A stretch of DNA of 64,000 nt. It comes from Tunturiibacter gelidiferens (GTDB lineage Bacteria > Acidobacteriota > Terriglobia > Terriglobales > Acidobacteriaceae). The translations under genes and the position numbers were made by a program. Numbering within the stretch: position 1 is the first letter of the stretch; each line of letters starts with the position of its first letter. Of the stretch, positions 4,560-61,585 are shown piece by piece. The notes under the pieces were generated by a model, which worked only from the letters and a program-made list of their open reading frames with translations, did no database searches and was not told the DNA's origin. Location: the NCBI RefSeq assembly GCF_013410115.1, contig NZ_JACCCV010000001.1:62001-126000 (forward strand), written 5' to 3'.

Positions 4560-5237
4560 ATGAAATTGTCGAGACAAACTAGAGCACGGTTAGCGTGGAT
4601 TAAATCTTTCTTTAAGGCCTCCTGGCGCTTCGAAGACTATCCTATTGATTACATCGACCAGGGAGAAAGTTCATCCGATCTCCCAGAACGCCTCCAAAAG
4701 AAGCGATGGCGCGCAGACCTCTTGGGTGCATATTACCTATCGGGCTTAGGTGATGATCATCGATCCGCATTGGATGACGCAAAGCGCAAGTACACTGATT
4801 TTGTAGCTACTGGACAGAGAATGCCCCGACCCGGTTCGAAACCAAAAATCACCTTCGCGTCCGATGAGCGAGTCTCGCGCTTCCCGGAACTGCGGGACAA
4901 CTTCATCAAGGAAGTCCTGCAGCTGGAATGGGCATTGGTCACCGATGAATCTTCACTCTGGGATTTTCATACCGATACCGACAACAGAAACATGTATTTG
5001 AAAATTGCCGGGGTTTACGGAGTAGACGTGTCCCACATCATAAGCGCAAACCTCGCCGATATATTGAACGGCATCATGGACGAGATTGGCACTTTTCCTG
5101 AAGACGATATATCAAAGGCTATTAGGCTTGGTCGGGATGCGCGCGCCCGCTACAACATGGGACTGCCCCGAACAACCGTGGAATCCGTATCAATAACATT
5201 TCTGACAGGTTTGTTAAACTACCTAACAGCCAATTGA
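4560..5237 (+). CDS. ORFan hypothetical protein of atypical composition
   Basis: 225 residues that I do not recognise. It has no signal peptide or membrane segment. The N-terminus is basic (MKLSRQTRARLAWIKSFFK); the middle holds alternating charged and aromatic residues; the C-terminus (about 150-225) looks helical. The start lies 3 bases after the DUF885 stop with no visible ribosome site, so translation may be coupled to the gene before it. Composition differs sharply from the neighbours: I count 29/60 G+C at 4621-4680 against 39/60 at 3481-3540 in DUF885, with A/T-ending codons frequent. This points to recent acquisition between DUF885 and galU. Confidence 0.65.
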   Translation: MKLSRQTRARLAWIKSFFKASWRFEDYPIDYIDQGESSSDLPERLQKKRWRADLLGAYYLSGLGDDHRSALDDAKRKYTDFVATGQRMPRPGSKPKITFASDERVSRFPELRDNFIKEVLQLEWALVTDESSLWDFHTDTDNRNMYLKIAGVYGVDVSHIISANLADILNGIMDEIGTFPEDDISKAIRLGRDARARYNMGLPRTTVESVSITFLTGLLNYLTAN

Positions 5238-5254
5238 ATCGAGATTGCTGAACC

Positions 5255-6136
5255 ATGACTCCCCAGAAAATCCGCAAAGCCGTCTTCCCCGCCGCAGGCA
5301 TGGGCACCCGCTTCCTCCCCGCCACCAAGGCCATGCCCAAAGAGATGCTCTGCCTCGTCGACAAGCCCCTCATCCAGTACGGCGTCGAAGAGGCAGTAGC
5401 CGCCGGCTGCACCGAGATCATCATCGTCACCGGACGCGGCAAGTCCACCATGGAAGATCACTTCGACCGCAGCCCCGAGCTTGAAGCCTCCCTCGCCGCA
5501 AAGAATAAAACCGCCCTCCTCGAAGTCGCGCGCTCCGTCGCAAAGCTCGCCAAGATCACCTACACCCGCCAGCCCGAACCCCTCGGCCTCGGCCACGCCG
5601 TCCTCATGGCCAAAGAGCTCGTCGGCGACGAACCCTTCGCCGTCCTCCTCCCCGACGACATCGTCGACGCCACCATCCCCTGCATGAAGCAGATGGTCGA
5701 AGCCTTCAACGAAACCCAATCCAGCATCCTCGGCTCCGAGATCGTCGAAGGCGCAGCCATCCAGAACTACGGCTGCCTCGACTGCACGCCCGATCCCAAA
5801 AACCCGCGCCTGCTCGCCGTCAAAAACCTCGTCGAAAAACCCAAACCCCAAGACGCCCCATCGCAGAATGCGATCATCGGCCGTTACATTCTCACCCCGC
5901 GCATCTTCGAGATGCTCGAGCACATCACCCCCGGCGCAGGCGGCGAACTCCAGCTCACCGACGGCATCAAAGCCCTCCTTCAACACGAAAAAGTCTACGG
6001 ATTCAGCTACCAGGGCAAGCGCCACGATGCAGGCGACAAGCAAGGCTTTCTCCGCGCCACCGTAGAGCTCGCCCTCAAGCACAAAGACCTCGGTCCCTCC
6101 TTCCGCGCCTGGCTCAAAGCCCTACCCATCCAATGA
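5255..6136 (+). CDS. galU: UTP--glucose-1-phosphate uridylyltransferase
   Basis: 293 residues, typical GalU length. It forms UDP-glucose from UTP and glucose-1-phosphate in the cytoplasm, for exopolysaccharide, LPS sugar and trehalose pathways. The nucleotide-binding signature AAGMGTRFLPATKAMPKEM lies near residues 12-30, followed by DKPLIQYGVEEA (substrate site), LLPDDIV near residue 130 and VEKPKPQDAPS near 195. The start ATG sits 17 bp after the ORFan stop. An open frame overlapping its stop (from 6133) continues towards the ferritin-like gene but has no family resemblance before 6442. Confidence 0.96.
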   Translation: MTPQKIRKAVFPAAGMGTRFLPATKAMPKEMLCLVDKPLIQYGVEEAVAAGCTEIIIVTGRGKSTMEDHFDRSPELEASLAAKNKTALLEVARSVAKLAKITYTRQPEPLGLGHAVLMAKELVGDEPFAVLLPDDIVDATIPCMKQMVEAFNETQSSILGSEIVEGAAIQNYGCLDCTPDPKNPRLLAVKNLVEKPKPQDAPSQNAIIGRYILTPRIFEMLEHITPGAGGELQLTDGIKALLQHEKVYGFSYQGKRHDAGDKQGFLRATVELALKHKDLGPSFRAWLKALPIQ

Positions 6137-6441
6137 CGCAGCTTCGCCGCCGGTCAGCCGCTCCTGACGAGAGCAAAGCCGACGCCGTAGCCTTCGGCAA
6201 ACTCTTCATCTCCAACCCCGGCCTGCCCGCGCGCCCCGATGCCACAACGTTCTACGTTCAGGCACCACCGGCTGCACCGATTACCCCATGTAAACCGATT
6301 CCGCAACAGCCGCAATCATTCTCTTCCAATGATTGCGGCTCCCACATCCTCTGCCATGCTCAATCAACCCTTCATAAACTCCAGCTACACTTCCTGCATC
6401 TCACAACTGACACCACTACCGCAGCAAGCACTGGAGAACAC
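6137..6441. other. galU to ferritin-like gene intergenic region
   Basis: 305 bp without a recognisable gene. It contains a perfect hairpin at 6308-6340 (separate entry). The rest is proline/threonine-like noise if translated. The promoter of the ferritin-like gene should lie between the hairpin and 6442, but no convincing -35/-10 pair is visible. Confidence 0.5.
6308..6340. terminator. 13-bp perfect inverted repeat after galU
   Basis: AGCCGCAATCATT at 6308-6320 pairs perfectly with AATGATTGCGGCT at 6328-6340 across a 7-base loop. There is no T-run on either strand, so it is either a weak or factor-assisted terminator of galU or a processing hairpin. Confidence 0.55.
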
Positions 6442-6915
6442 ATGCCTGATAAAGCAACCGCACCCTCGGTCATCACCCGCGAAAAACTAGTCGATCTCCT
6501 TAACGAAGATCTCTCCCGCGAATATCAGGCCATCATCGCCTATGTCGTCTACTCGCAGGTCCTCAAAGGCGCTCAATATATGAATATCGCCGACGAGCTC
6601 GCCGTCCACGCCACCGAAGAGCTCGCCCATGCCATCGCCCTCTCCAATCACATCGACTATCTCGGCGGCATGCCATCCGTCACCCCCAAGCCAGTCAAGA
6701 CCTCCGAGAAGGCCGAGGATATGCTGCGCTTCGACCTCGAAAACGAGAAGAAGACCATCGCCAACTACCGCCGCCGCATCCGCCAGTGCGACGAGCTCAA
6801 CGAGTTCGCCATCGGCGAGTCCCTCCGCGAGATCCTCATGCAGGAGCAGGACCACCTCATCGCCCTCGCCACTGCCCTGGGCGTAGACCCACCCGACCCA
6901 GGCATCGCCGACTAG
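6442..6915 (+). CDS. ferritin-like (bacterioferritin-type) protein
   Basis: 157 residues forming a four-helix bundle. Di-iron ligand motifs fall where the ferritin superfamily has them: SREYQAIIAY in helix 1, ATEELAHA (E-x2-H type) in helix 2, ENEKKTIANYRRRI in helix 3 and QEQDHLIAL in helix 4. The likely role is iron storage or detoxification in the cytoplasm. There is no haem-binding Met that I can place with confidence, so I do not call it Bfr. The start at 6442 has a GGAGA site 5 bases upstream; the frame is open further upstream to 6133 but that part is not protein-like. Repeat A1 follows the stop. Confidence 0.85.
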   Translation: MPDKATAPSVITREKLVDLLNEDLSREYQAIIAYVVYSQVLKGAQYMNIADELAVHATEELAHAIALSNHIDYLGGMPSVTPKPVKTSEKAEDMLRFDLENEKKTIANYRRRIRQCDELNEFAIGESLREILMQEQDHLIALATALGVDPPDPGIAD

Positions 6916-6936
6916 ATCTGTCCCGGCGCAGCAAGC

Positions 6937-7045
6937 CTGGAGTCCTCCTTCCGACCAACGGGAGGACCCAGGCATCTCGCCATCAAGACCGGTGTACAAG
7001 TCACGAAGTGACCGCCCCACGCGTAGTGGGCCCGTCCGGCAGGAC
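6937..7045. repeat. fold-back repeat A, copy 1 (partial, right half)
   Basis: The best-conserved part is 7000-7045: GTCACGAAGTGACC, then CCCCACGCGTAGTGGG, then CCCGTCCGGCAGGAC. It matches the right arm of copy 2 base for base over most of its length. An inner piece (GACCAACGGGAGGAC, about 6957) is also present, but the left arm is missing. It lies between the converging stops of the ferritin-like gene (6915) and the minus-strand gene ending at 7048. Confidence 0.85.
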
Positions 7046-7047
7046 AG

Positions 7048-7434
7048 CTACTTGCTTATCTTCAAATCGATATAAAACTGATTTTTATTGTCGAAAGAGC
7101 TGATCGTCTTCACGCCGCTCTTCTTCCCGTTACTCTCAGCCCAGATCTCATAATCCGTATTCTGCACCAGCTGCCCGAAACGGTAGCCGCCCGCATCGTC
7201 TGAAAAGTAGCTCTTCACCGCGAGGCTATGATCGTCCTTCAAGTAGACCACCGCGCCCTTCACGGCCGTCCCTTCGGCATCGACAACTTTGCCCTGGACA
7301 ACCCGTTGCACTGGACCCCGCTGCTCCGCAACTGCGGAAATCGACTGCACAGCACCAAAGACAGTCATCAGCGAGCAAGACGCGAGAATCACCCTACCGG
7401 TAAACGAACGGAGCAAGAGATCAGTACGCTTCAT
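7048..7434 (-). CDS. secreted carboxypeptidase-regulatory-like domain protein
   Basis: 128 residues. A long signal peptide covers about residues 1-37. The mature part begins QRGPVQRVVQGKVVDAEGTAVKGAVVYLKDD and continues DDAGGYRFGQLVQNTDYEIWAES, the pattern of a single CarboxypepD_reg beta-sandwich. Acidobacteria carry many such short exported domains; the role of stand-alone ones is not known. Stop is 2 bp from repeat A1. It is followed on the same strand, upstream, by the LysW-like gene at 7473. Confidence 0.82.
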   Translation of the reverse strand: MKRTDLLLRSFTGRVILASCSLMTVFGAVQSISAVAEQRGPVQRVVQGKVVDAEGTAVKGAVVYLKDDHSLAVKSYFSDDAGGYRFGQLVQNTDYEIWAESNGKKSGVKTISSFDNKNQFYIDLKISK

Positions 7435-7472
7435 GTCTTCCAGTATACGGCTATCACCATCCAGATCAGCCG

Positions 7473-7673
7473 TTACTCCTCTTCCTCCTCGTCGGTATGC
7501 GTTACATCTTCATCGTCATAACCCGCATCGTCGACAGCCGCCAATTCCAGTGGATCAACAGAAACAACCTCGAGATCGACGCCGCACTCATCGCACTGCA
7601 CCGTCTCTCCCTCTTCCACTTCATCGACGTCAACAACAATCGGGTTATCGCATTCCGGACAAACAACAGCCAT
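7473..7673 (-). CDS. LysW-like acidic zinc-ribbon protein
   Basis: 66 residues. Two CxxC pairs (C5/C8 and C27/C30) form a zinc ribbon closely resembling LysW, the amino-group carrier protein of lysine/arginine biosynthesis; [18 protein letters not shown] is the LysW-like block. The C-terminal 20 residues are almost all Asp/Glu and end in EEEEE. LysW proper ends in a DWGE-type motif whose last Glu is the attachment point; here only the terminal Glu is kept. No lysX, lysZ or argE-like gene is nearby. Ribosome site GGAGG precedes the ATG. It could be a carrier protein or an unrelated acidic zinc ribbon. Confidence 0.78.
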
Positions 7674-7830
7674 GGTCGTGCCTCCAGGGTCTTTGGGCCC
7701 ACTCGCCCGTCTATAGGATTACAGGAACATCCCGACGGACGCCCTTGCTATTTATTTAGCGGCCATCCCGTTCCCACGTCAAGCATACGATTCACCCGGC
7801 ACCCCGGTTTTGCAAAAGGAGAAAAATTTC

Positions 7831-9378
7831 GTGATCGCAGCATCCGTCTCGCCCGCACGCCCGGCCCGCTCTCGCTTCCTCGGAACCACCGCCCTCCTCG
7901 CCTGCACCCTCCTGCACGCACAACAGCCGCTCGCCACCGGCAAGCCCATCACCCCCGCACCAGCCGACCCCGCCATCGCCGCAGCCCTCGCGCAAATCTC
8001 CCCCGACCACATCAAAGCCACCATCACCAAACTCGTCTCCTTCAACAACCGCAGCACCCTCTCCAGCATGGACACTGACCTCGCCCCCAACACCGGCGTC
8101 AACGCCGCTGCCGACTGGATCGAGTCCGAGTTCAAATCCATCTCCACCGCCTGCAACAACTGCCTCGAAGTAAAGCGCGACACCTTCACCGAACCCGCCA
8201 GCTCCGTACCAAATGCCCGCATCACCAAACCCACAAAGATCTCGAACGTCTACGCCATCCTCCGCGGCACCGACCCCGCACAGGTCGCCCGCATGGTCCT
8301 CGTCACCGGCCACTACGACTCCCGCAACTCGAAGAACGAAAACACCCACGACCCCGCCCCCGGAGCCAACGACGACGCCAGCGGAGTAGCCGTCTCCCTC
8401 GAATCCGCCCGCGTCCTCTCCAAACTCAAGTTCCCCGGCACCATCGTCTTCGTAGCCGTAGCCGGAGAAGAACAAGGCCTAAACGGCAGCGCCCACCTGG
8501 CCAAACTCGCGCGTGAAGAAAACTGGCAGCTCGAAGCCGTCCTCAACAACGACATCGTCGGCGGCGACACCACCCCCGGCAGCACCACGCCGCCCAACAT
8601 CCAGGACAAGACCACCGTCCGCGTCTTCTCCGAAGGCATCCCCGCCAATGCCACCCCCGACCAACTCCGCACCATCGAAAATCTCGGCGCCGAAGGCGAC
8701 TCCCCCTCCCGCGAACTCGCCCGCGCCATCGTCGACGTCTCCTCCACCTACTTCCACCCCACCTCGCAGCGCCTCTCCGCCGGAACCCCCGCCAACCGCC
8801 CCCACAGCACGGCCATGCACATGATCCCCGCCTTCCACCCCGTCCTCATCTTCCGTCGCGACCGCTTCCTCCGCGGCGGCGACCACACCAGCTTCAACCA
8901 GGAGGGCTTCGCCGCCGTCCGCTTCACCGAGTGGACCGAAAACTTCAACCACCAGCACCAGGACGTCCGCGTAGAAAACGGCACCCAATACGGCGACCTC
9001 CTCCAGTTCGTCGACTTCAACTACGTCGCCAACGTAGCCCGCCTCAACGCCGCCACCCTCGCCACCCTCGCCTCCGCCCCCGGCGAGCCGCAGAATGTCC
9101 GCACCCTCACCACCGCCCTCGACAACAACACCGAGCTCACCTGGCAGCCCCCCGCCGGCGCTCCCGCCAGCACCACCTACGAGGTCGTCTTTCGCGAGAC
9201 CGACCAGCCCGTCTGGACCGACTCCGAGGCCGCAGGCTCCTCCCTCAACCTCAAGCTAGCCATCTCCAAAGACAACGTAGTCTTCGCCGTCCGTTCCGTC
9301 GACCCCGCCGGCCACCGCAGCATAGCCGTCCTCCCCACACCCGAACGCGGCCAGCGCCCCCCAACCCCGGCAAAATAG
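7831..9378 (+). CDS. M28 family secreted aminopeptidase-like protein
   Basis: 515 residues. I chose GTG 7831 because AAGGAG at 7816-7821 sits 9 bases before it; an in-frame TTG at 7810 would put that site inside the gene. A signal peptide covers about residues 1-29. The M28 metal ligands are all visible: H161 (TGHYDS), D181 (GANDDASG), E213/E214 (GEEQG), D241 (NNDIVGGD) and H352 (GDHTSF). The last ~90 residues (from about 425) look like a fibronectin-III-type sandwich ([20 protein letters not shown]). It should be an exported zinc exopeptidase that trims peptides for nutrition. Repeat A2 starts 5 bp after its stop. Confidence 0.9.
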
Positions 9379-9382
9379 TAAT

Positions 9383-9575
9383 GTCCTGCCGGACGGTCCT
9401 CCTGCGCGGAGGGCGGTCACTTCGTGACGCGTATACCAGTCTTGCCGGAATGAGCGGCACGGGTCCTCCCGCTGGTCGGAAACATCTTCCTTCGCGACCA
9501 ACGGAAGCGCCGAGCAAAGCCCTACACAAGTCACGAAGTGACCGCCCCACGCGTAGTGGGCCCGTCCGGCAGGAC
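9383..9575. repeat. fold-back repeat A, copy 2 (complete, archetype)
   Basis: 193 bp that folds on itself. Left outer arm GTCCTGCCGGACGG (9383) pairs with right outer arm CCGTCCGGCAGGAC (ends 9575); left middle arm GCGGTCACTTCGTGAC (9413-9428) pairs with GTCACGAAGTGACCGC (9530-9545). Inner pieces related to CTCCCGNTGGTCG and CGACCAACGGAAG face each other. Several arms are also self-palindromic (GTCACTTCGTGAC, GTCCTGCCGGAC), so cruciform and cloverleaf-like foldings compete. It starts 5 bp after the M28 stop. Confidence 0.92.
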
Positions 9576-9650
9576 ACAGCGCTCGAAAACAGCTTATATT
9601 GCTTCCAGGCAAAACGGAGTTCCTGGCCGGATGACAGGAGGTCACACCCA

Positions 9651-9920
9651 ATGCTGAACAAAACTTTCACCGCCACCCTGCAAAAGAGCCCTGCCAAAGG
9701 TGGTTGGACCTACGTCGTCTGGCCCGACTCAGTAAAATTCTTCGGCACGCGAGGACTCGTCAAAGTCACCGGAAAGATCGATGGCCACCCCTTCCGCAGT
9801 TCTTTCATGGCCCTCGGCGACGGCACCCATAAACTGCCCGTCAAGGCAGACATCCGTAAAACCATCAACAAACAGCCAGGCGACAAGGTAAAGGTGCTGC
9901 TCGAAGATCGCATCGACTAA
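9651..9920 (+). CDS. DUF1905 domain protein
   Basis: 89 residues comprising one DUF1905 domain: [20 protein letters not shown] at the N-terminus, then [21 protein letters not shown] and [20 protein letters not shown]. The family is a small beta-barrel often fused to YdeI/OmpD-like DUF domains; its biochemical role is unknown. AGGAGG (9636-9641) gives a strong ribosome site 9 bases before the ATG. It is isolated: repeat A2 upstream, 144 bp to the next gene. Confidence 0.88.
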
Positions 9921-10064
9921 ATCCGGAAACAACAGCGTGTAAATCCGCAGACCAACAGCAAGGCGTCCCGTTTTGATGAAAAAATCAGCGCCGTCCGCGC
10001 AAATCGGCGCAAACTCTCCCCGCCACCGGACCGGAGAACCTATGATGAAATAAGAAAAGCATCC

Positions 10065-10892
10065 ATGCCTCGCTCCGGCCCCATCTCGCTCGCTCTCCCC
10101 GCCTTCGAAGGCACCACCCGCAAGCTCATCCTTCTGAACGTCGGAACCTTCTTCGGCCTTCTCCTCCTCCGCTGGCTCGCCCCGGGACTTCAGGCCGTCC
10201 TCCTCGCCCACCTCATCCTCGAGCCCCTCGCCGTCCTCCACGGCGAAATCTGGCAGCTCCTCACCTACTCCTTCGTCGAGCAGGGCATCCTCGGCATCCT
10301 CTTCGGTATGCTCACCCTCTGGTTCACCGGCTCCCTCCTCGAGCCCTCCTTCGGCGGCCGCTGGCTGGCCGAGCTCTACCTCACCTCCGTCATCGGCGGC
10401 GCCATCCTCGCCTCCGCCCTCTCCTTCACCCACGTCCTCGGCCTGCGTCCCGACATCGTCGCCGCCGGAGCCTGGTCCGGCATCTTCGGCCTCATGGTCG
10501 CCATCGCCATGATCTTCGGCGACCAGGAGTTTCTCCTCTGGTTTGTCCTTCGCATCAAGGCCAAGTACATGGTCGCGATCTACATCCTCATCGCCATCGC
10601 CATTCTGCTCAAGCAGGCCGACAGCTTCAACGCTCTCATCCAGCTCTCGGGCGCCCTCTGCGGTGCGCTCTTCGTCAAATTCGCTCCCCGCCGCGGCCTC
10701 GCCTTCGCCGTCTCCGAGCGCTACTTCGGCGTCCGCAACCGCTACTACCGCTGGAAGCGCCGCCGCGCCGCCCGCAAGTTCGAGGTCTACATGAAGAAGC
10801 AGAACCGCGAGGTCCACTTCGACAAAGACGGCCGCTACGTCGACCCCGACGAGCTCCGCAAGAACCCCAACGACAAGCGCTGGATGAACTAG
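10065..10892 (+). CDS. rhomboid-fold membrane protein, catalytic residues degenerate
   Basis: 275 residues with six hydrophobic segments in the rhomboid arrangement. EIWQLLTYSFVEQG matches the rhomboid L1/TM2 region, GMLTLWFTGSLLE follows, and the serine motif appears as A136-W-S138-G139 instead of GxSG. The His/Asn residues of TM2 (HxxxHxxxN) are replaced by E, G and G, and the TM6 catalytic His is Q193 (IQLSGALCG). The cytoplasmic tail (about 225-275) is basic and ends DELRKNPNDKRWMN, like the short domain that often follows acidobacterial rhomboids. The fold is clear; protease activity is doubtful. Could act as a client-binding pseudoprotease. Confidence 0.82.
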   Translation: MPRSGPISLALPAFEGTTRKLILLNVGTFFGLLLLRWLAPGLQAVLLAHLILEPLAVLHGEIWQLLTYSFVEQGILGILFGMLTLWFTGSLLEPSFGGRWLAELYLTSVIGGAILASALSFTHVLGLRPDIVAAGAWSGIFGLMVAIAMIFGDQEFLLWFVLRIKAKYMVAIYILIAIAILLKQADSFNALIQLSGALCGALFVKFAPRRGLAFAVSERYFGVRNRYYRWKRRRAARKFEVYMKKQNREVHFDKDGRYVDPDELRKNPNDKRWMN

Positions 10893-10973
10893 CCAAGCGC
10901 TGGATGAAAAGGAGTGCACGTCACCGCAGGGTGCTCTAGCGGCATTCCGTTGACGGCGAAGAGATCTCTCATC

Positions 10974-11046
10974 GCGACCATCGGGAGCGCCAACCTAAGG
11001 GGTATACCCGTCACGAAGTGACCGCCCCGCGCGCAGCGGAGAGACC
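10974..11046. repeat. fold-back repeat A, copy 3 (partial, right half)
   Basis: GCGACCATCGGGAGCG, GGTATACCCGTCACGAAG and TGACCGCCCCGCGCGCAG are right-arm and inner pieces of repeat A; the outer GTCCGGCAGGAC is lost. It lies between the rhomboid-like gene (stop 10892) and the converging lipoprotein gene (stop 11074). Confidence 0.82.
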
Positions 11047-11073
11047 TGCTCCCCTCAAAACGGCCCAGGCCAT

Positions 11074-11634
11074 CTACCGCGAAGCCACCGTCAAGCTGCC
11101 AAACGCCTGCTGATAATTCGCGCTCCAAACCCCCTCCGCATCCTCGCTCTGCAGATAAACCCGCTTCTCCCCGGCAAACTCCGGTGCAAACTCCACCACA
11201 AGATTCACCGTCAAACTCTTCCCCTCAATCTCCGACGAAGCCCCCGCCGCCATCACCGTGCACTGCGAGTTCTTCAACATCGCCCCGCTCCCCACCCTCG
11301 CCGCATGACTCCCCCACACTCCACCCATATTCGGCACCAGGTCAATCTCCTGCGCCCGCACGTCGTATCGCACCAGGCACTCCTTCGCCGACCACCCCCT
11401 CTGCTCTCCCGGCCGCACGTTACTCGACATCACCGACACCGTGACCTCACGAATATGCCCGCCCCCTTTAGGATCCTGAAAGGTCGCCGCAATTCTCTGC
11501 TCGTATCCCTCGCCACGCGACACAACAACCGACACCGGAGTCGACGAATCCATCCTCATAGGAGCCACCCGCCTGCATCCCGTCAGCAAAGACCCGCAGA
11601 CAATCGCCACCGCAATCACCCTCACATCCCGCAC
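11074..11634 (-). CDS. lipoprotein with acidobacterial beta-sandwich domain
   Basis: 186 residues. A lipoprotein signal ends in L17-T-G-C20, so the mature protein should be lipid-anchored. The remainder reads like the exported domain found many times in acidobacterial proteins: FQDPKGGGHIREVTVSV, VRYDV, LVPNMGGVWG, LKNSQCTVMAAG and LTVNLVVEF. The pattern (NSQC followed by an alternating LTVNL strand) is what I rely on. No enzyme motif is present; a binding or structural role is the most I would infer. It converges on the rhomboid-like gene with repeat A3 between them. Confidence 0.75.
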   Translation of the reverse strand: MRDVRVIAVAIVCGSLLTGCRRVAPMRMDSSTPVSVVVSRGEGYEQRIAATFQDPKGGGHIREVTVSVMSSNVRPGEQRGWSAKECLVRYDVRAQEIDLVPNMGGVWGSHAARVGSGAMLKNSQCTVMAAGASSEIEGKSLTVNLVVEFAPEFAGEKRVYLQSEDAEGVWSANYQQAFGSLTVASR

Positions 11635-11800
11635 GCCAGCCCTCCCAGAACCAACCTGCCCTCTTCAGCCAGCCCTCAGATTCAAGAAACTTACCGAAGA
11701 AGGCTTCGCTCTGCCTAGACCTCAAGAACGAATTCCGGAGATTTCTCACTGCCCTAAAATTCAACCGCCTCACTTGTTGAACCACCGTTCCCGTAACCGT

Positions 11801-11840
11801 GTCATTCCGACTAAAGCGCAGCGAAGTGAAGGAACCAGCA
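11801..11840 (-). repeat. degenerate repeat B copy
   Basis: GTCATTCCGACTAAAGCGCA followed by GCGAAGTGAAGGAACCAGCA is a diverged, inverted version of repeat B (compare 20033-20079). The two ends match and the centre is expanded. Confidence 0.5.
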
Positions 11841-11983
11841 TCTCGCCAGACCCCACAAAACCGAGCATTCCCCAGAAAAAACACTGTCAACCCCACAAAC
11901 CATCTAACCAAAACAAAACAAACAAGATCGACGTGGCGCATTAGTTTCACTCAACTTGGTAAACTTGAAAGGTAGAGATCTCA

Positions 11984-12018
11984 AAAGCCCCGAGCCAAAG
12001 CTTGGGGCTTTCGTTTTT
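11984..12018 (+). terminator. Rho-independent terminator
   Basis: AAAGCCCC (11984-11991) pairs with GGGGCTTT (12004-12011), followed by CGTTTTT. No plus-strand gene lies directly upstream, so it either ends a small RNA started near 11950 (a TAAACT box is present) or attenuates transcription into the gene at 12161. Confidence 0.8.
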
Positions 12019-12160
12019 AAACCTAAACCCTTTAGAAAGACGTATTTGCCGCTAACCCCAATGGTTGCACGAATTTAGCAAAACGACAATTTGTCATCTT
12101 GTTGCAAACATTCAACTTATACGGAAATAACCCCCCAGGGGGTACTCCAGGAGAGGCACC

Positions 12161-12607
12161 ATGGAATATCCAATCTGCCGTCACATCAAGACCAACGGTC
12201 TGCAATGCCACGCGCCCGCCCTCACCGGCGGCGACTACTGCTACTTCCACAATCGCCTCCACGTCCGCCACGCGCAGTTCCGGCCCAACGACATCTCTCG
12301 CCCCTACTTCACTGCCGGCCGAGATCTGGAGCTGTGCGCTCTCGAAGACCGCGAGGCGGTTCAGTTTGCACTCTCCGTGGTCATCAACGCGCTCGCCACC
12401 AACCGCATCGACACCAAGCGCGCCACGGCGCTCCTCTACGGACTTCAGCTGGCCTCGTCCAACGCCGTCCGTCTCAACAACACTCCGGAGACACCCGATG
12501 TGGTCCGCGCCGTCGAGTCCTCGAACGACGGCCTCGACCTCGCCGAACCCGGAGCCATCATGGAAGTCTTCACTCGCCTTGAGCTCGAGCAGAGCACAAG
12601 CTCATAG
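12161..12607 (+). CDS. acidobacterial C3H zinc-knuckle protein, function unknown
   Basis: 148 residues. The N-terminus has a compact metal-binding pattern C6-x9-C16-x10-C27-x2-H30 (ICRHIKTNGLQC, then GGDYCYFH), similar to DUF5763-like knuckles. The second half holds ALEDREAVQFALSVVINALA and DTKRATALLYGLQLAS, helical blocks that I associate with a family found in many copies in acidobacterial genomes. Function is unknown; the knuckle suggests nucleic-acid or protein binding. An AGGAGAG ribosome site precedes the ATG. Repeat A4 begins 7 bp after the stop. Confidence 0.78.
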   Translation: MEYPICRHIKTNGLQCHAPALTGGDYCYFHNRLHVRHAQFRPNDISRPYFTAGRDLELCALEDREAVQFALSVVINALATNRIDTKRATALLYGLQLASSNAVRLNNTPETPDVVRAVESSNDGLDLAEPGAIMEVFTRLELEQSTSS

Positions 12608-12613
12608 ATGCCT

Positions 12614-12835
12614 GTCCTGCCGGACGGGCCCGCTACGCGCGGCGCGGTCACTTCGTGACTTGTATACCGGCTTCGCCCCGGCGCTCCCGATGGTCGCGAA
12701 CGAATCTTGATCCCGACCATCGGGAGGACCAGCCGAAGGGGTATACCCGTCACGAAGTGACCGCGCGAATCGGGGTCCCCACAAACAGGTCTTCGTTTGT
12801 GGGGTGACAAAGCGCAGTGGGCCCAAGCGGCAGCG
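12614..12835. repeat. fold-back repeat A, copy 4 (complete, with nested insertion)
   Basis: 222 bp. Left arm GTCCTGCCGGACGGGCCC (12614) and GCGGTCACTTCGTGAC are present; the inner pair CTCCCGATGGTCG / CGACCATCGGGAG is perfect; GGTATACCCGTCACGAAG (12740) begins the right arm. The right arm is then interrupted near 12765-12810 by a different palindrome, CCCCACAAAC / GTTTGTGGGG around a short loop, before AGTGGGCCCAAGCGGCAG resumes. It fills the whole space between the stop of the zinc-knuckle gene and the stop of aspS. Confidence 0.9.
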
Positions 12836-14692
12836 CTAGCTTCTAACCGAGGTCTTCAAATGCAGCTCCCGCATCTGCTGATCGCTAACCGGCGTAGGCG
12901 CATCGACCATCAGGTCGATCGCCTTCGCCGTCTTCGGAAACGCAATCACCTCACGGAGGCTAGTCGCACCAGCAAGTATCATCACAATCCGGTCCAGCCC
13001 CAGCGCAATGCCGCCATGCGGAGGCGTGCCGTACTCCAGCGCATCCAGGAAGAAGCCAAACCGCTCCTTCGCCTCTGCGTCCGACATGCCCAGCGACCGG
13101 AAGATCTCGGCCTGCACATCCTGCCGGTGAATACGAATCGAGCCCGAACCAAGCTCCGTTCCATTCAGCACGATGTCGTAAGCAAGCGCCCGCACAGCGC
13201 CCTTATCGTTCGTTAGCTTGCCCGACTTGATGTCCTCTTCATGCGGAGAGGTGAACGGATGATGCGCCGCATTCCAAACCTTGGTCTCCTCATCCCACTC
13301 ATACATCGGGAAGTCGGTGACCCAGAGAAACTTGAAGTCAGCCTCGGTACCAGTCTTCACAAACCGTCCATGCTTGTCGGCAAACTTAGTGGCAAGCTGC
13401 AACCGCAAAGCACCAACCCGCTTATAGATCCACTGCGGATCGAAGTTCCACTTAGCCGGAGCACCAATCTTGGGAGTAACAACAATGATCAGATCGGCAG
13501 CATCAACCTGGCTCGCAGCACCTTCAAACCGAGTCTGCTCCTCCGACAGCTTCGCCTCAATCACAGAAGCTAACGGAGCAAACGCATCATTCGTCTTCAA
13601 CCGAGCCACATCCAGAAAGTCCAAGCCGCAGTCGCCAAACGTAGCGCGAATCTCCTCCACCAGCGCACGCTTCTGCGTCCCGCTCAGCATACCCGCCTTG
13701 GGAATTACAAACCCAAGCACCGGCAGCTCTTTCTCAATCTTCAACGTCTCCCTCAACTCAGGAGTCAACTCATCAGTCAGCGAAACCATCGCCGGCAGCC
13801 GCATATCCGGCTTGTCGATCCCGTAGTTCTTGATCGCATCGTCATAAGTCATCTGCACAAAAGGAGTCGTCAACGAGATCGAAGCCGTCTTGAACGCAGC
13901 AGTCAGAAAACCCTCGACGACGCGAAACACCTTCTCCTGCTGGGGAAAGCTCATCTCAAGGTCGATCTGGGTAAACTCCGGCTGCCGATCTGCACGTAGA
14001 TCCTCATCGCGGAAGCAACGAGCAATCTGAAAATACTTATCGAATCCCGAGATCATCAGGATCTGCTTGAAGATCTGCGGCGACTGCGGCAGCGCATAGA
14101 AGCTGCCCGCATGCACCCTGCTCGGCACCAGGTAGTCACGCGCTCCCTCAGGCGTAGAACGCGTCATGAAAGGAGTCTCAATCTCAAGAAAGCCCTGCTC
14201 AACAAGGAAGTTGCGAATCGCCATCGCAACCCTGCTGCGCAGCGCGAAGTTATGCTGCATCTCCGTGCGTCGCAGATCGAGATAGCGATACTTCAACCGC
14301 ACCTCTTCGTTCGCAATCGCATCTTCCGCAGGGGAGAATGGAGGAGTCTTAGCCTCGTTCAGTAGCAACAACTCGCTCGCAACCACCTCAATCGCACCAG
14401 TAGGCATATTGGGGTTCTCAAGCCCCGCACCACGCCGCCGAACCTTACCCTTCACCGCAACAACGTACTCCGACCGCGCAGCCTCAGCCTTAGCATGTGC
14501 CTCGCCGGACACCTCTTTGTCGAGCACGACCTGAGTAATCCCACTCCGGTCCCGCACATCGAGAAAGATCAGGTTCCCATGGTCGCGACGGCGATTCACC
14601 CAGCCCATCAACACCACCGGCTGCCCATCTTGCTCCACGCGAAGCTCGCCACATATATGGGTCCGCTGCAAACTACCTAAAAAATCCAACAT
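12836..14692 (-). CDS. aspS: aspartate--tRNA ligase
   Basis: 618 residues from the ATG at 14692 (MLDFLGSLQRTHICGELR). It charges tRNA-Asp (class II enzyme). The N-terminal OB fold (VVLMGWVNRRRDHGNLIFLD) is followed by class II motifs: GFLEIETPFMTRSTPEGARD, CFRDEDLRADRQPEFTQID and GIALGLDRIVMILAG. The region between about residues 290 and 430 is the GAD-type insertion of bacterial AspRS, so this is the full bacterial enzyme. In-frame codons continue to 14776, inside hisS, but match no AspRS. A GTG at 14704 is an alternative start. It lies 61 bp downstream of hisS and is likely co-transcribed. Confidence 0.97.
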   Translation of the reverse strand: MLDFLGSLQRTHICGELRVEQDGQPVVLMGWVNRRRDHGNLIFLDVRDRSGITQVVLDKEVSGEAHAKAEAARSEYVVAVKGKVRRRGAGLENPNMPTGAIEVVASELLLLNEAKTPPFSPAEDAIANEEVRLKYRYLDLRRTEMQHNFALRSRVAMAIRNFLVEQGFLEIETPFMTRSTPEGARDYLVPSRVHAGSFYALPQSPQIFKQILMISGFDKYFQIARCFRDEDLRADRQPEFTQIDLEMSFPQQEKVFRVVEGFLTAAFKTASISLTTPFVQMTYDDAIKNYGIDKPDMRLPAMVSLTDELTPELRETLKIEKELPVLGFVIPKAGMLSGTQKRALVEEIRATFGDCGLDFLDVARLKTNDAFAPLASVIEAKLSEEQTRFEGAASQVDAADLIIVVTPKIGAPAKWNFDPQWIYKRVGALRLQLATKFADKHGRFVKTGTEADFKFLWVTDFPMYEWDEETKVWNAAHHPFTSPHEEDIKSGKLTNDKGAVRALAYDIVLNGTELGSGSIRIHRQDVQAEIFRSLGMSDAEAKERFGFFLDALEYGTPPHGGIALGLDRIVMILAGATSLREVIAFPKTAKAIDLMVDAPTPVSDQQMRELHLKTSVRS

Positions 14693-14753
14693 GATCTCAT
14701 TCACTTTCAAAATCGAAGTCGCTCGCGAGGAGCTAATCAGGAAGCAGAGTTCA

Positions 14754-16046
14754 CTAAGCGCGCAGAAAGCCTGCAAGCTCAGCGCGAGGAACCTTCGTCT
14801 GCTCTCCAGCGCTAAAGTCTTTAACCGTCAGAATACCCGATGAAACCTCATCTTCGCCGACAATCACCATTCTCCGAGCGAGCTTATCGGCAGCCTCGAA
14901 GGACTTCTTCAGCCGGAAACTTCCATCTCCAACCTCAACCGAAAGTCCCGCGCGACGAAGCTCCTGAGCCAGCGCAAGCGCAGCAGCATTTCGCTCAACT
15001 CCCATCGGAGCAACGAACGCATCGAGCTTCCGCTCCTTCGCCGCAGATTCCTGCGCCTGAAGCGTAAGGATCAACCGATCTTCGCCAATCGCGAACCCGA
15101 TTCCAGGAGCCTTCGGACCACCAAGCATCTCCGACAATCCGTCGTATCTTCCTCCACCAAGCAAAGCGTTCTGAGTCCCCAAACCGCTTCCATCAGGCAC
15201 AGTGAACTCGAACGTCGTCCGTGTGTAGTAGTCCAAACCACGAACCAGCCGAGGATTCACCGTATAAGCAACTCCACAAACATCAAGCGCAGCAAGCACC
15301 TGCGCAAAGTGCTCCTTGCTCGCCTCATCCAGGAAGTCGGCGATCTTCGGCAGACCGTTGATGATCTCCTGATCTCCAGCATCCTTCGAGTCCAGCACGC
15401 GCAGCGGATTCGTCTCCGCGCGACGTTGGTTATCTGCACTCATCTTGTCCTTCACCGGAGCCAAAGCCTCACGCAGCGCAGCAATGTACTTCGGCCGATC
15501 CGTCGACGAACCAACCGAGTTCACCTCAAGCTTCCACCCCTTCACGCCCAACTCGTTCAGGAAGGTAGAAAGCATCTCCAGAACCTCAGCATCACGCAGG
15601 GCACTATCAGCACCAGACCAGGCCGGACCAAGCACTTCCGCCCCAATCTGCCAGAACTGACGATATCGTCCACGCTGCGGTCGCTCGCGCCGGAACTGCG
15701 GCCCAATGTAGAACAGCTTCTGCAGCATTCCAGTATCCGCAAGCTTGTGCTCGATATACGCACGCACAACTCCAGCCGTATTCTCCGGCCGCAACGTCAG
15801 GCTCTGCGCGGTATCACTATCAGCCCGCGTGCGATCCTCCCACGTATACATCTCCTTGGAGACAATGTCCGTCTCCTCGCCCACACCACGCGCGAACAGC
15901 GACGTGTCCTCGAAGATCGGTGTGCGAATCTCCCCAAATCCATAGCGTGCAAAGACGGCTCTCGCCGTAGCCTCCACATAGTTCCAAAGCGCCGTCTCGG
16001 GAGGCAACAAGTCCCGAGTCCCGCGTACTGCCTTCAAAGTAGCCAT
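14754..16046 (-). CDS. hisS: histidine--tRNA ligase
   Basis: 430 residues from the ATG at 16046 (MATLKAVRGTRDLLPPE), the usual HisRS N-terminus; upstream in-frame codons overlap nothing conserved. Class II motifs are visible: RTPIFEDTSLFARGVGEETD, RERPQRGRYRQFWQIGAE (motif 2), the histidine-specific LVRGLDYYTRTTFEF and GGGRYDGLSEMLGG (motif 3). The C-terminal anticodon-binding domain begins near residue 330. It lies 31 bp after the gamma carbonic anhydrase gene and 61 bp before aspS on the same strand. Confidence 0.97.
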   Translation of the reverse strand: MATLKAVRGTRDLLPPETALWNYVEATARAVFARYGFGEIRTPIFEDTSLFARGVGEETDIVSKEMYTWEDRTRADSDTAQSLTLRPENTAGVVRAYIEHKLADTGMLQKLFYIGPQFRRERPQRGRYRQFWQIGAEVLGPAWSGADSALRDAEVLEMLSTFLNELGVKGWKLEVNSVGSSTDRPKYIAALREALAPVKDKMSADNQRRAETNPLRVLDSKDAGDQEIINGLPKIADFLDEASKEHFAQVLAALDVCGVAYTVNPRLVRGLDYYTRTTFEFTVPDGSGLGTQNALLGGGRYDGLSEMLGGPKAPGIGFAIGEDRLILTLQAQESAAKERKLDAFVAPMGVERNAAALALAQELRRAGLSVEVGDGSFRLKKSFEAADKLARRMVIVGEDEVSSGILTVKDFSAGEQTKVPRAELAGFLRA

Positions 16047-16077
16047 CACTTCCAGTGTAGCGAAAGCCTCACCTGAT

Positions 16078-16599
16078 TTACGCACCAGCAGCTTCGGCCA
16101 GGTAAATCGCCGTGTAATCCAGATAGTTCTGTGCGTACTTCAGGATCAACTCCCGATCCGCATCGCCCAGTGTTCGCCTCACCTTCCCCGGAACACCCGC
16201 AACCAACGAGTTCGGCGGAATCACCGTATGCTCTGGAATGACCGCTCCCGCCGCGATGATAGATCCCTCCCCAATTCGGGCGTCGTTCAAGATGGTCGCG
16301 CCGATGCCAACCAGAACCATATCTTCCAACACGCATCCGTGCACGGTGGCATTGTGTCCGATGGTCACCAGCTCCCCTACGATCACCGGATAGAGATTGC
16401 GCATACCATGCAGAACCGCACAGTCTTGTACATTGCTCTTCGCACCGATGCGGATCGAATTCACGTCACCCCGGACGACCGCGTTCATCCAGACACTCGC
16501 TTGTTCGCCGAGGATAACGTCACCGATGATTTGAGCTGACAGATCGACGTAGGAGCTGGCAGGAATTGTCGGTGTGTGTGTCTGGTAAGTGCGAATCAT
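16078..16599 (-). CDS. gamma carbonic anhydrase family protein
   Basis: 173 residues in hexapeptide-repeat units that form a left-handed beta-helix (SAQIIGDVILGEQASVWMNAV and following). The three zinc-binding His are present as H64, H82 and H87 (AVLHGMRN; TIGHNATVHG), with the family's 5-residue spacing between the last two. Members reversibly hydrate CO2 or act as acyl/ferripyochelin-binding homologues; activity cannot be read from sequence. An in-frame TTG at 16605 is better spaced from GAGGG and could be the real start, adding two residues. Upstream is the divergent rpsU. Confidence 0.88.
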   Translation of the reverse strand: MIRTYQTHTPTIPASSYVDLSAQIIGDVILGEQASVWMNAVVRGDVNSIRIGAKSNVQDCAVLHGMRNLYPVIVGELVTIGHNATVHGCVLEDMVLVGIGATILNDARIGEGSIIAAGAVIPEHTVIPPNSLVAGVPGKVRRTLGDADRELILKYAQNYLDYTAIYLAEAAGA

Positions 16600-16689
16600 G
16601 AACAAATTCTACCCTCGGAATGCAAAAGATTTCAGCTTTCGCAAGAGTCGGTATCCGGCCTCGAATTACCAACGATTTATGTGATTTTC

Positions 16690-16718
16690 TTGACGAAGGG
16701 GCGTATTCTGGATATATC
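16690..16718 (+). promoter_or_regulatory. sigma-70-type promoter of rpsU
   Basis: TTGACG (16690-16695), a 17-bp spacer and TATATC (16713-16718). The start of transcription would be near 16725, about 25 bases before the rpsU start codon, leaving room for GGAGG. Confidence 0.65.
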
Positions 16719-16749
16719 CCGATTGGGAGTGTTTGGAGGTGTATTTTTG

Positions 16750-16947
16750 TTGGCAGAGGTTCGAGTACAAGAAGGCGAACCCCTTGAGAATGCCCTGCGG
16801 CGCTTTAAGCGCAAGGTGCAGACGGAAGACATCATCAAGGAAGTCAAGCGTCACTCTTTTTATCTGAAACCAGGTGAGAAGAAGCGTGTGAAAGAAGCGC
16901 TTGCACGCAAGCGCAATCGCAAGAAGGTCCGTAAGGAGCAGGATTAG
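16750..16947 (+). CDS. rpsU: 30S ribosomal protein S21
   Basis: 65 residues from a TTG start (16750) with GGAGG about 10 bases upstream. The sequence AEVRVQEGEPLENALRRFKR, then KVQTEDIIKEVKRHSFYLKP and the lysine/arginine-rich tail KRNRKKVRKEQD is typical S21, the small-subunit protein needed for start-site recognition. Upstream in-frame codons to 16576 overlap the promoter and are not S21-like. It is monocistronic. Confidence 0.95.
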   Translation: MAEVRVQEGEPLENALRRFKRKVQTEDIIKEVKRHSFYLKPGEKKRVKEALARKRNRKKVRKEQD

Positions 16948-17231
16948 TTAGCTCCCCAACCACGACGTGCCGTCTCTTCCTCTATCAGCGAGTTTGAAGA
17001 GACGGCCGCCTGAACCGCTAGAGATGGACTCCCGCCATTGACTAGCCCCGGCAGACAGAGCCTGATTACGGGTTCACATTGACCGGCAAATCTGAGCAAA
17101 TTCCACGAACTCGCAGTTTCGGGCCCCCTTCAAATCCAAAGTAATGGTCATCAGCAAAGGTAAGCCCCTTGCGGCGTTGCCACGATCGAGCCCTCGGGTG
17201 TTCTTCCTTTCCGTAGGACGGGAGAAGCGGC

Positions 17232-17645
17232 ATGGAATTTCTGGATCGGCTATTAACCTGTGCAGATTGCGGCGGCGAGTTCATCTTCACCGCCGGGGAA
17301 CAACTCTTTTTCTTCGACAAACAATTCAAGAACGACCCGAAGCGCTGTAAGCCATGCAAGTCCAAACGGTCCGGGGTGGGGCTTAAGGCTGGCGCGGGAC
17401 CGGCGGCGGCAGGCCTGTCAAGAACCGAGACTCGTACCGAGTGCTCCGAGTGCGGGGTGGAGACTACTGTGCCGTTCAAGCCGACACAGGGGCGGCCGGT
17501 GCTTTGCAGGCAGTGCTTCCAGAGCAAGCGTGCTCCTACGTCGGGGGCGCTGGTGACCGCGGCAGCGACAGCGGGAATGGTCGCTGGTGCTCCTGGAGAG
17601 CACGTTGCGGCCAGCGTAGAGTTGCTGGCGGCTTCGCGGGTCTGA
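17232..17645 (+). CDS. double zinc-ribbon protein (CxxC-x17-CxxC type)
   Basis: 137 residues. Domain 1 (about 1-42) is LLTCADCGGEFIFTAGEQ, then FFFDKQFKNDPKRCKPCK, the probable zinc-ribbon fold of the zf-trcl family. Domain 2 (about 68-98) is ECSECGVETTVPFKPTQGRP followed by LCRQCF, a CxxC-x17-CxxC ribbon. All eight cysteines are present. The tail is alanine-rich and unstructured. The protein should be cytoplasmic and bind two zinc ions; its role is unknown. A GGGAG ribosome site lies 8 bases before the ATG. Confidence 0.85.
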   Translation: MEFLDRLLTCADCGGEFIFTAGEQLFFFDKQFKNDPKRCKPCKSKRSGVGLKAGAGPAAAGLSRTETRTECSECGVETTVPFKPTQGRPVLCRQCFQSKRAPTSGALVTAAATAGMVAGAPGEHVAASVELLAASRV

Positions 17646-17696
17646 CTGTCTACCTCTCGACTATATCCCTCACAGTAGGATGTGAGTGAGGGACTT

Positions 17697-18605
17697 ATGG
17701 CCTTTGGGGACGGAAGCGGGCTGCACGATGCGGCCGCGGAGTTGGTTCGGGCGCGGACTAAGGTTGGGGACTTCGAGCTGACAGTTTGTACGGATGGGAC
17801 ATACAAGCTCGATGGCGGCGCTATGTTCGGCGTGGTGCCGAAGCCGTTGTGGGAGAAGCGGGCCGCGGCGGATGAGCAGAACCGTATTCTGCTGGGGCTG
17901 AATACGGTGGTGGTGCGAACCGGCAGGAATACGGTGGTGATCGAGACCGGAGTCGGCAACAAGCTGTCGGCGAAGATGCGGGAGATCCAGTGCAACCAGG
18001 AGCTTCTGCCCCAGTCGCTCGCTGCGGCGGGCGTGAAGGTTGAGGAGGTGGATGTTGTGGTGAACACTCACCTCCACTTTGATCACTGCGGTTGGAATAC
18101 CACGCTGCATCCGAATGGTTCGGTAGCTCCGACGTTCCCGAATGCGCGGTACTTTGCGCATCGTGGCGAGGTGGAACATGGTCGTCTGCAGCTGGATCGG
18201 GATCGGGTGAGTTATCTGTCGCCGAACTATGATCCGCTGGTTGAGTCGGGGCAGATGACGCTGCTCGACGATGCTGGAATCAGGGCGAATCCGGGGATCT
18301 GTCCGGGCGTTAGTGTGGAGGTTTTCCCTGGTCACACGGCGCAGTTGATGGCGGTTCATATCGAGTCGAAGGGTCAACATGCCTGCTATATTTCGGATTT
18401 AATTCCAACTAGTTCGCATCTGGATCCGACCTGGGTGATGGGGTACGACCTGGATCCGGTGGAGACGATTGCGCAGCGGAAGCGGTTTTATGCGCGGGCG
18501 ATTCCGGAGAGCTGGCTGGTGCTGTTTACGCACGATCACGAGACGCCGATGGGGCGAATTGGGTTGAATGAGAAGAACAAGCCTGTTTTGGTTGCGAGGA
18601 AGTAA
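17697..18605 (+). CDS. MBL-fold metallo-hydrolase
   Basis: 302 residues. The zinc-binding signature THLHFDHCG lies near residue 125, with later ligands in PGHTAQLMAVHI and ISDLIPTSSHL. The overall pattern (LGLNTVVVRTGRNTVVIETG, then NKLSAKM) matches the lactonase-like/MBL hydrolase group with a 300-residue cytoplasmic protein. Substrate unknown. I start at ATG 17697, which has GAGGG just upstream; a GTG at 17682 with a poorly placed AGGA is the alternative. Confidence 0.85.
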   Translation: MAFGDGSGLHDAAAELVRARTKVGDFELTVCTDGTYKLDGGAMFGVVPKPLWEKRAAADEQNRILLGLNTVVVRTGRNTVVIETGVGNKLSAKMREIQCNQELLPQSLAAAGVKVEEVDVVVNTHLHFDHCGWNTTLHPNGSVAPTFPNARYFAHRGEVEHGRLQLDRDRVSYLSPNYDPLVESGQMTLLDDAGIRANPGICPGVSVEVFPGHTAQLMAVHIESKGQHACYISDLIPTSSHLDPTWVMGYDLDPVETIAQRKRFYARAIPESWLVLFTHDHETPMGRIGLNEKNKPVLVARK

Positions 18606-18626
18606 GGTCGGACGACAGTCCGAGAC

Positions 18627-18652: not shown

Positions 18653-18714
18653 CCAATCCAAAATCGCGGTGACTTTATGGTGACTTTTGGCCAGTTGTTG
18701 GTGACTGCTGGCGA

Positions 18715-20327: not shown

Positions 20328-20403
20328 TTGACGGTTGCGGTGGCAGTGGCAATGGCGTAATTGACTCGCTGGTGGAAGGGGCGGTGCAGTAATCTCGGGA
20401 GGT

Positions 20404-29106: not shown

Positions 29107-29289
29107 GTCCTGCCGGACGGGCCTCCTGCGCGGAGGGCGGTCACTTCGTGACTTGTATACCTTGTTTTGGGTGGGATGAACTGCAAGGGACCTCCCGTTG
29201 GTCGGCTTGATCTTGCTTCCGACCATCGGGAGGACCGAGCGAAGCCTTAAGAAGGCGTGCGAACGCCCGCCCCACGCGTAGTGGGGTTT
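29107..29289. repeat. fold-back repeat A, copy 5
   Basis: Left arm GTCCTGCCGGACGGGCC (29107) and GCGGTCACTTCGTGAC (29137-29152) are intact; the inner ACCATCGGGAGGACC is present; the right arm is diverged but ends CCGCCCCACGCGTAGTGGGG followed by TTTTC, which on the plus strand is a terminator-like hairpin (CCCCAC / GTGGGG). It fills the space between the stops of purF (29099) and the converging gene (29290). Confidence 0.88.
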
Positions 29290-61508: not shown

Positions 61509-61585
61509 CGGGTCCGCTTCGCGCGGGGCGGTCACTTCGTGACGGGTATACCCCTTCGGTTGGCGCTCCCGTTGGTCGCGAAGAC
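61509..61585. repeat. fold-back repeat A, copy 6 (partial, left half)
   Basis: GCGGGTCCGCTTCGCGCGGG, GCGGTCACTTCGTGACGGG, TATACCCC and GCGCTCCCGTTGGTCGCG are the left and inner parts of repeat A; the right half is missing. It begins 15 bp after the cysK stop. Confidence 0.82.

Follow-up and report, generated by a model that had tools for sequence, protein, structure and literature searches.

Six copies of a fold-back repeat in the window

The window (the whole stretch of DNA that was analyzed, 64,000 nucleotides of the Tunturiibacter gelidiferens genome) carries six copies of an interspersed repeat, A1 to A6 (Table 1), all of which were found where an earlier note on this DNA had placed them. 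In agreement with that note, each copy lies in a gap bounded by at least one stop codon, and four of the gaps (those of A1, A3, A4 and A5) separate converging genes; the gene calls are our own, and 10 of the 12 neighbors of these copies have Pfam matches. A1 is located between the ends of a ferritin-like gene (6915) and a CarboxypepD_reg gene (7048), whereas A2 occupies a tandem gap, 4 bp past the stop codon of an M28 peptidase gene (9378) and 75 bp before a DUF1905 gene, and A6 occupies another tandem gap, after a PLP-enzyme gene (stop codon at 61494) and before a FabA-like gene. The claim that all six copies share the same motifs has to be narrowed: they do form one family, but the end GTCCTGCCGGAC is absent from A3 and A6.

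Table 1. Repeat copies and their component hairpins in the window
Feature	Position	Strand	Basis
A1, single arm	6937..7045	-	sequence; gene calls; site also occupied in the same-species genome
End hairpin H1 of A1, GTCC-TGCC-GGAC	7034..7045	-	sequence; H1 pairing count
A2, full two-arm copy	9383..9575	+	sequence, gene calls, folds
Left end hairpin H1 of A2	9383..9394	+	sequence
Core hairpin H3 of A2, left arm, GTCAC-TTC-GTGAC	9416..9428	+	sequence
Core hairpin H3 of A2, right arm	9530..9542	-	sequence
Right end hairpin H1 of A2	9564..9575	-	sequence
A3, single arm without H1	10974..11046	-	sequence; comparison with relatives
A4, full two-arm copy between converging genes (stops 12607, 12836)	12614..12835	+	sequence, gene calls, fold
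Extra hairpin in the H2 loop, A4 right arm	12777..12804	-	sequence; same-species genome without the insert
A5, two arms, between converging genes (stops 29099, 29290)	29107..29289	+	sequence, gene calls
Alternative hairpin-3 module GGGCGTTCGCACGCC in A5	29254..29268	-	sequence; module recurs in other copies
A6, single arm without H1	61509..61585	+	sequence, gene calls

A full copy consists of two inverted arms that face each other over about 190 bp, and the other copies consist of one arm. The arm, with about 62 conserved nt, reads, in order, TGTCCTGCCGGACGGGC, a variable stem enclosing TGCGC, GGTCACTTCGTGAC, two further bases, GTATACC, a spacer that varies and CTCCCGTTGGTCG, and comprises three short local hairpins, namely H1 (GTCC/GGAC), the variable H2, and H3 (GTCAC/GTGAC). 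The highly conserved dyads are mainly GTCACTTCGTGAC; the TTC loop of H3 is asymmetric yet conserved, and the outer pair of H3 is kept in 64 of the 66 aligned units. In 21 of 25 full copies, a T immediately precedes the left end, and in 22, an A follows the right end. Among the variants are the alternative H3 module and an additional hairpin within the H2 loop; A4 is longer than usual because it carries the latter, and the right arm of A5 is degenerate, with the former in place of H3 and the right end missing. At GCGCAGCGG, A3 continues into a repeat-like tail of another kind, which a relative also has, so that two repeat families seem to have fused at this common sequence. With its tail (window 10974-11074), A3 ends in CGCAGCGGAGAGACC, which resembles the tail of a CGTC-type repeat occupying the same gap in a relative (gap compared in L083-L089). 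At three sites (L017, L030 and L039), the outer end of the unit adjoins another interspersed sequence, which is AAAAACGTGGCGTA-like and rich in CACCAC/GTGGTG words.

The proposal that complete copies fold on themselves over about 190 bp was borne out by comparison with shuffled sequences (z of -10.6 for the RNA fold and -9.1 for the DNA fold of A2, and -10.4 for A4), while the single arms A1, A3 and A6 fold no better than shuffles (z of -0.6, 1.5 and 0.5, respectively). In the stretches analyzed, 64 of 73 facing unit pairs are 90-140 bp apart. Of the remaining pairs, six are more than 4 kb apart and three, at 1-2 kb, surround ordinary genes, for a POTRA protein and an aldo/keto reductase (two of the three represent one site in two genomes).

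Copy number and distribution

Searching the genome and its relatives with patterns derived from the copies, as the earlier note had proposed, yielded 159 exact matches to the 15-base core CGGTCACTTCGTGAC in the 5.29 Mb genome, compared to none for the reversed control. Many copies thus lie elsewhere in the genome, and scarcity outside the window, which the earlier note had named as fatal to its reading, was not observed. The core is present in 22 of the 61 genomes examined, all within one genus and 12 of them with at least three copies, and in none of 24 genomes outside the genus; the reversed core has one match across the 61 genomes, in G013. A covariance model (R1) built on 66 units of the T. 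gelidiferens genome (the consensus alignment includes 66 of its 78 units, those with shifted ends being left out) detected units in 38 of 62 genomes of the genus and none in 24, with at least 87 units in each of 13 of the 62. The distribution within the genus is patchy. A longer pattern was found in at least 107 stretches, and its carriers among the matches listed (80 of 107) are Edaphobacter lichenicola strains, Granulicella, an Acidipila strain, Acidobacteriaceae strains and MAGs. The window probably falls within this Edaphobacter/Granulicella group.

With the reversed-core control empty in the home genome, the same sites occupied in an independent genome, and the family present in many other species, chance or an assembly artefact is refuted as a source of the repeat; nothing was found in its favor, and we consider its probability negligible. 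A phage origin was rejected as well, given that viral contigs contain no match to the unit. No Rfam family matched the 64-kb window at the gathering score, and neither a description of the repeat family nor the core string was found in the literature searched; a table row for Granulicella aggregans in PMC12306157 names no family.

Placement relative to genes

The placement of the repeat was analyzed in 766 kb of sequence, comprising the window and 40 stretches selected for carrying the core. The list of elements, which took in 103 of 110 R1 matches, contains 70 elements (33 full copies, 35 single arms and 2 truncated ones), compared to 67 in an earlier motif-based list that missed degenerate arms. 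With one element at a stretch edge left out, the 69 sampled copies are all located between called genes and none inside them: 33 in converging, 24 in tandem and 12 in diverging gaps. Converging non-overlapping gaps carry a copy more often (33 of 110) than the other gaps do (36 of 426; odds ratio 4.6, Fisher p 3e-8). Copies often begin within 20 bp of a stop codon; in 20 of the 24 tandem gaps, the copy is nearer the upstream stop codon, and both flanks measure at most 35 bp in 21 of the 33 converging gaps. In tandem gaps, the outer end of single arms points towards the stop codon in 8 cases and away from it in 7, so no orientation preference is visible on the motif-based list of 67 elements. 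The placement is thus non-random with respect to gene ends, as the earlier note had anticipated, but its claim that the repeat is found only just after stop codons does not hold genome-wide, considering the 12 copies between diverging genes.

Comparison with relatives and relationship to terminators

Comparison between species reveals copies both beside terminator-like hairpins and in place of them. In the A1 gap, three copy-free relatives contain a plain hairpin instead. The A4 site is also occupied in G068, G002 and G066, with no copy in G071. At a converging site in another stretch (L064 14764-14976), a terminator-like hairpin accompanies the copy in four genomes and occurs alone in three. 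At L064 8182-8395, the copy is present in four genomes and missing in six (gaps of 49-149 bp); four of these six copy-free gaps contain no perfect stem longer than 6 bp, the stem in G071 is 8 bp long, and visual inspection of the G025 gap shows a 10-bp stem with a T-run. Replacement of an ancestral terminator by the copy fits A1 but not L064 14764-14976, with mixed evidence at L064 8182-8395, and was dropped as a general rule. Copies can thus accompany terminators or occupy their place, and are more than simple substitutes for them.

No U-tract terminator was detected at the four copies in 5000-24900, in a weak scan that reports 24 sites compared to 18.8 in shuffled sequence. This result speaks against the role in transcription termination proposed in the earlier note, as far as ordinary intrinsic terminators are concerned, and so does the copy at L064 14764-14976, which adjoins a terminator that the copy-free relatives also possess.

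Retention, probable deletion and possible stem exchange within the species

In a second genome of the same species (G065), 57 of the 69 sites could be compared. The copy is kept at 53 of these, a collapsed remnant is found at two, and the gap is wholly different at two. Of the remnants, one is in a diverging gap (L036), where the copy is cut to the 12-bp end GTCCGGCAGGAC, and the other in a tandem gap (L051), where it is collapsed at the TGCC repeat; the simplest interpretation of both is deletion across a hairpin, between short direct repeats. The two wholly different gaps are those of A3 and A5. The A3 copy is missing in five relatives, the same species included. In place of the A5 gap (window 29100-29290), G065 has 577 bases with a 154-aa open reading frame, and the gap is similarly long in several other species; here, the open reading frame is gone and the repeat is in place. 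Simple insertion does not explain the loss of resident DNA that accompanies the copy at A3 and A5.

Among the retained units with parsed H2 stems (n=61; gaps with differing unit numbers and 11 unparsed stems were left out), 48 stems are the same, seven, at six sites, differ by whole-pair swaps, and six show other differences. H3 is unchanged in 64 of 72 cases, with one change that keeps the pairing (in A4), two changes to the alternative module and five other differences. The mean identity to G065 is 96.6% for the elements and 96.6% for the rest of the gaps (47 compared), with the identity of individual elements ranging from 77% to 100%. At three of the swap sites (L048, L050 and L057), 211-426 bases of the gap's longer flank could be aligned, with 94-97% identity, and the differences are confined to one stem, one arm or patches (mainly one stem in L048 and mainly one arm in L050). 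Whole-pair swaps with nearly unchanged flanks at these sites suggest gene conversion between copies. At the other three sites (L032, L039 and L064 3174), the remaining gap is diverged, with 71-90% identity on at least one side, so that allelic import from unsampled strains fits equally well. Template switching that keeps stems paired has been described (PMC8794818). A switch within a hairpin copies one side onto the other and cannot yield two new ones; hence, a source in another element or in an unsampled allele would be needed. The single-arm and single-stem differences within the species uphold the suggestion of the earlier note that a recombination process can act on one arm.

The extra hairpin in the H2 loop (window 12777-12804; L048 4059-4266; L049 1749-1956) is present in one and absent from the other of the two same-species genomes, in both directions. 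It was considered as an independent repeat, but a 14-mer from it has only two exact matches in the T. gelidiferens genome while units of several relatives carry the same H2-loop insert, so the extra hairpin is taken as a variant of H2.

Pairing and covariation in the hairpins

The local stems of the repeat are paired nearly throughout. In the 66 units of the T. gelidiferens genome, 96.1% of 923 cells are paired, compared to 88% in shuffles and at most 42.5% with slid partners, and two-sided changes affect 73 cells, compared to 2 with one-sided changes. For other records (150 units), pairing reaches 95.6% of 2035 cells, with 245 two-sided and 19 one-sided changes, although this alignment (150 of 177 matches) was fitted to the structure and is biased towards pairing. 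H2 stem triplets are perfectly paired in 80 of 85 units of the T. gelidiferens genome, whereas the two arms of a copy share the H2 triplet in 6 of 25 pairs, close to the 5.9 expected from shuffling; it is thus the local hairpin, and not the long fold-back, that is conserved. In the other records, H2 triplets are perfectly paired in 118 of 135 units and the arms share the triplet in 12 of 27 copies against 5.4 expected, indicating that the arms are not independent there or that species differ.

Had compensation proceeded stepwise through G-U pairs, one-sided (G-U) changes would be expected to be more frequent. Because they are so rare and the two-sided ones within the species are whole-stem swaps, the covariation does not have to reflect selection on RNA.

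Search for a mobilizing transposase

The T. gelidiferens genome contains no Y1_Tnp gene (PF01797), in a search that was positive in 5 of 14 control genomes. Across the genus, Y1_Tnp genes are present in 51 of 62 genomes; among the 18 unit-rich genomes (at least 30 units), four, including that of T. gelidiferens, have none, and of the other 44 genomes, 37 have one. Nor does the unit occur on both sides of a Y1 gene in any of the 30 distinct loci examined out of 132 matches listed, some of the examined stretches ending at contig ends. The near misses are an H1-like match in L228, some 440 bp away from the Y1 gene, an H3-like match inside the Y1 gene of L241, and parts of a two-arm copy about 2.7 kb away in L234. 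Inverted repeats of other kinds bracket the Y1 gene in 7 of 14 loci. On these grounds (no Y1 gene here and no unit-bracketed Y1 locus), a RAYT or TIRYT was rejected as the present partner of the repeat, and the search for a RAYT elsewhere that the earlier note had recommended yielded none in the home genome and none bracketed by the unit among the 30 Y1 loci of relatives.

The inverted repeats bracketing Y1 genes in L225, L228, L230, L231 and L236-L238 are mainly GGGTGCCCCA... and GGGGCTTTAGCCCC..., as expected of TIRYT elements. The GGGTGCCCCA... kind also sits in the copy-free A3 gap of relatives.

Two other transposase families, which likewise leave no target duplication, were considered and rejected since neither is present in all unit-rich genomes. 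Y2_Tnp (19 of 62 genomes of the genus and 8 of the 18 unit-rich ones) does not track the unit; IS110 (39 of 62) leans towards unit-rich genomes, with 15 of the 18 unit-rich genomes against 24 of the other 44, but is missing from three. No target site duplication of 3 bp or more was found directly at the ends of any of the 25 full copies, and a loose test for 4-9 bp repeats within 2 bp of the ends returned 2 of 25, against a shuffled mean of 1.4. Among facing pairs up to 2 kb apart, no autonomous parent with the same ends was seen (64 of the 73 pairs are too close to enclose a gene, and the three at 1-2 kb enclose ordinary genes).

Relationship to known repeat families

The analogy with REP/BIME elements drawn in the earlier note is a good one: inverted pairs, extragenic location, enrichment in converging gaps and a frequent position within 20 bp past a stop codon are all evident here. 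Like REPINs and BIMEs, for which these features are described in PMC3116915, the repeat occurs as inverted pairs and singlets in extragenic DNA, at high copy number and with occasional excision, and may adopt either a long hairpin or a clover of local hairpins. The fixed spacing of inverted pairs typical of REPINs is also found, with 33 of the 70 elements being two-armed. The differences are equally clear: the arm contains three hairpins, compared to the one short palindrome of a REPIN, whole stems differ within one species, there is no RAYT in the genome, and the repeat-flanked RAYT of a REPIN system has no counterpart among the Y1 loci examined.

Placement is shared with the GTAG and CGTC REP super-families, in which, according to PMC3733652, heterodimers are common and converging REPs of two families lie mostly less than 20 bp from both ORF ends. 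CGTC REPs also occur without a transposase, and REPtrons can be lost (PMC3733652). However, the unpaired tag of GTAG REPs is missing, with no GTAG in the 66-unit consensus, and so is the Y1 transposase that GTAG REPs and REPINs have in the genome. In CGTC REPs, the terminal CGTC is unpaired and precedes a stem of 8-9 bp that starts with A-T (PMC3733652), whereas the CGTC of this repeat overlaps the 4-bp H1 stem, with G-C as the outer pair. The repeat is thus real, abundant and REPIN-like, yet it has neither the REP tag nor the transposase.

The terminal inverted repeats of TIRYTs in Acidobacteria are likewise longer and partly self-complementary and occur as singles and dimers (PMC3733652), but the repeats that bracket Y1 genes here are other sequences (30 loci searched for the unit and 14 for any inverted repeat). 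The absence of a target site duplication in 25 full copies differs from a DDE-transposase MITE, and the four copies in 5000-24900 do not have the G+C stem plus U-tract of an intrinsic terminator. ERIC and BOX are intergenic imperfect palindromes or modular stem-loops without a transposase. The present repeat resembles them in consisting of modular stem-loops in intergenic DNA without a transposase, and differs in its sequence, its hosts and its three-hairpin inverted arms.

Possible origin, maintenance and function

We moderately favor the interpretation that this is an interspersed repeat that evolves by conversion and hairpin-stimulated deletion and probably serves as a passive barrier at 3' ends. 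Under this scenario, the family would have first multiplied as a non-autonomous REPIN-like element whose mobilizer was possibly lost; stem differences would arise by non-allelic conversion from other copies, and copies would be lost by hairpin-stimulated deletion. The placement would reflect tolerance, because an element just past a stop codon or between converging genes would disrupt neither coding regions nor promoters, and the transcribed hairpins might block 3' exonucleases or read-through, so that any function at gene ends is likely passive. Several results weigh against this interpretation: the missing U-tracts at the four scanned copies, the shuffle-like folding of the single arms, the terminator shared with copy-free relatives at L064 14764-14976, the loss of resident DNA at A3 and A5, the diverged gaps at three of the six swap sites, the excess of stem sharing between arms in other records, and a mean divergence of elements that is no greater than that of their gaps; the placement data, in addition, come from stretches selected for the core. 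A more radical version, which we regard as possible but rather doubtful, envisages a transposase-less recombining pool in which stems and arms would be copied between distant elements, with the pairing kept by conversion, and conversion would also seed new gaps that contain a short hairpin motif.

About as tentative is the alternative that the repeat is a functional RNA element of 3' ends, with hairpins selected as bidirectional terminators or stabilizers and the compensatory changes reflecting selection on RNA. The enrichment in converging gaps and the tight distance to stop codons are compatible with such a role, as are the plain hairpins in the A1 gaps of three copy-free relatives, and the short flanks in 21 of 33 converging gaps leave little room for another terminator. 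Nevertheless, one-sided changes are rare in both sets of units and the two-sided changes within the species are whole-stem swaps, the four scanned copies have no U-tracts, 12 of 69 copies are located between diverging genes, one converging site has a terminator with and without the copy, and at another, most of the copy-free relatives have no perfect stem of more than 6 bp. Mobilization by a Y1 transposase (RAYT or TIRYT) that has since been lost here, with the repeat being a REPIN or TIR family, would account for the REPIN-like architecture and for the lack of target duplication, as for Y1 elements, and Y1_Tnp genes are widespread in the genus, with TIRYTs on record in Acidobacteria (PMC3733652). 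We nonetheless deem this origin unlikely, considering that Y1_Tnp is absent here and in three more of the 18 unit-rich genomes, that the unit brackets none of the 30 Y1 loci, and that the bracketing repeats in 7 of 14 loci are of other kinds. Less probable still is a double-stranded DNA site for a nucleoid protein, gyrase or a condensin-like protein, with the symmetry reflecting a dimer. BIMEs in E. coli bind gyrase and IHF, and the dyads, mainly GTCACTTCGTGAC, are highly conserved; yet H2 and some H3 stems vary widely with the pairing kept, which a sequence-specific protein would hardly tolerate, and the conserved H3 loop is asymmetric.

Conversion with hairpin-stimulated deletion, the reading we favor, bears on the question of how REP-like repeats persist without a REP transposase, a problem that CGTC REPs also raise (PMC3733652). 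The two genomes of the same species provide a direct record, in which most copies stay, a few differ by whole stems, and two have collapsed at 4-bp repeats, and this record makes conversion versus transposition testable. It also carries a warning, namely that strong covariation in such repeats does not necessarily imply selection on RNA.
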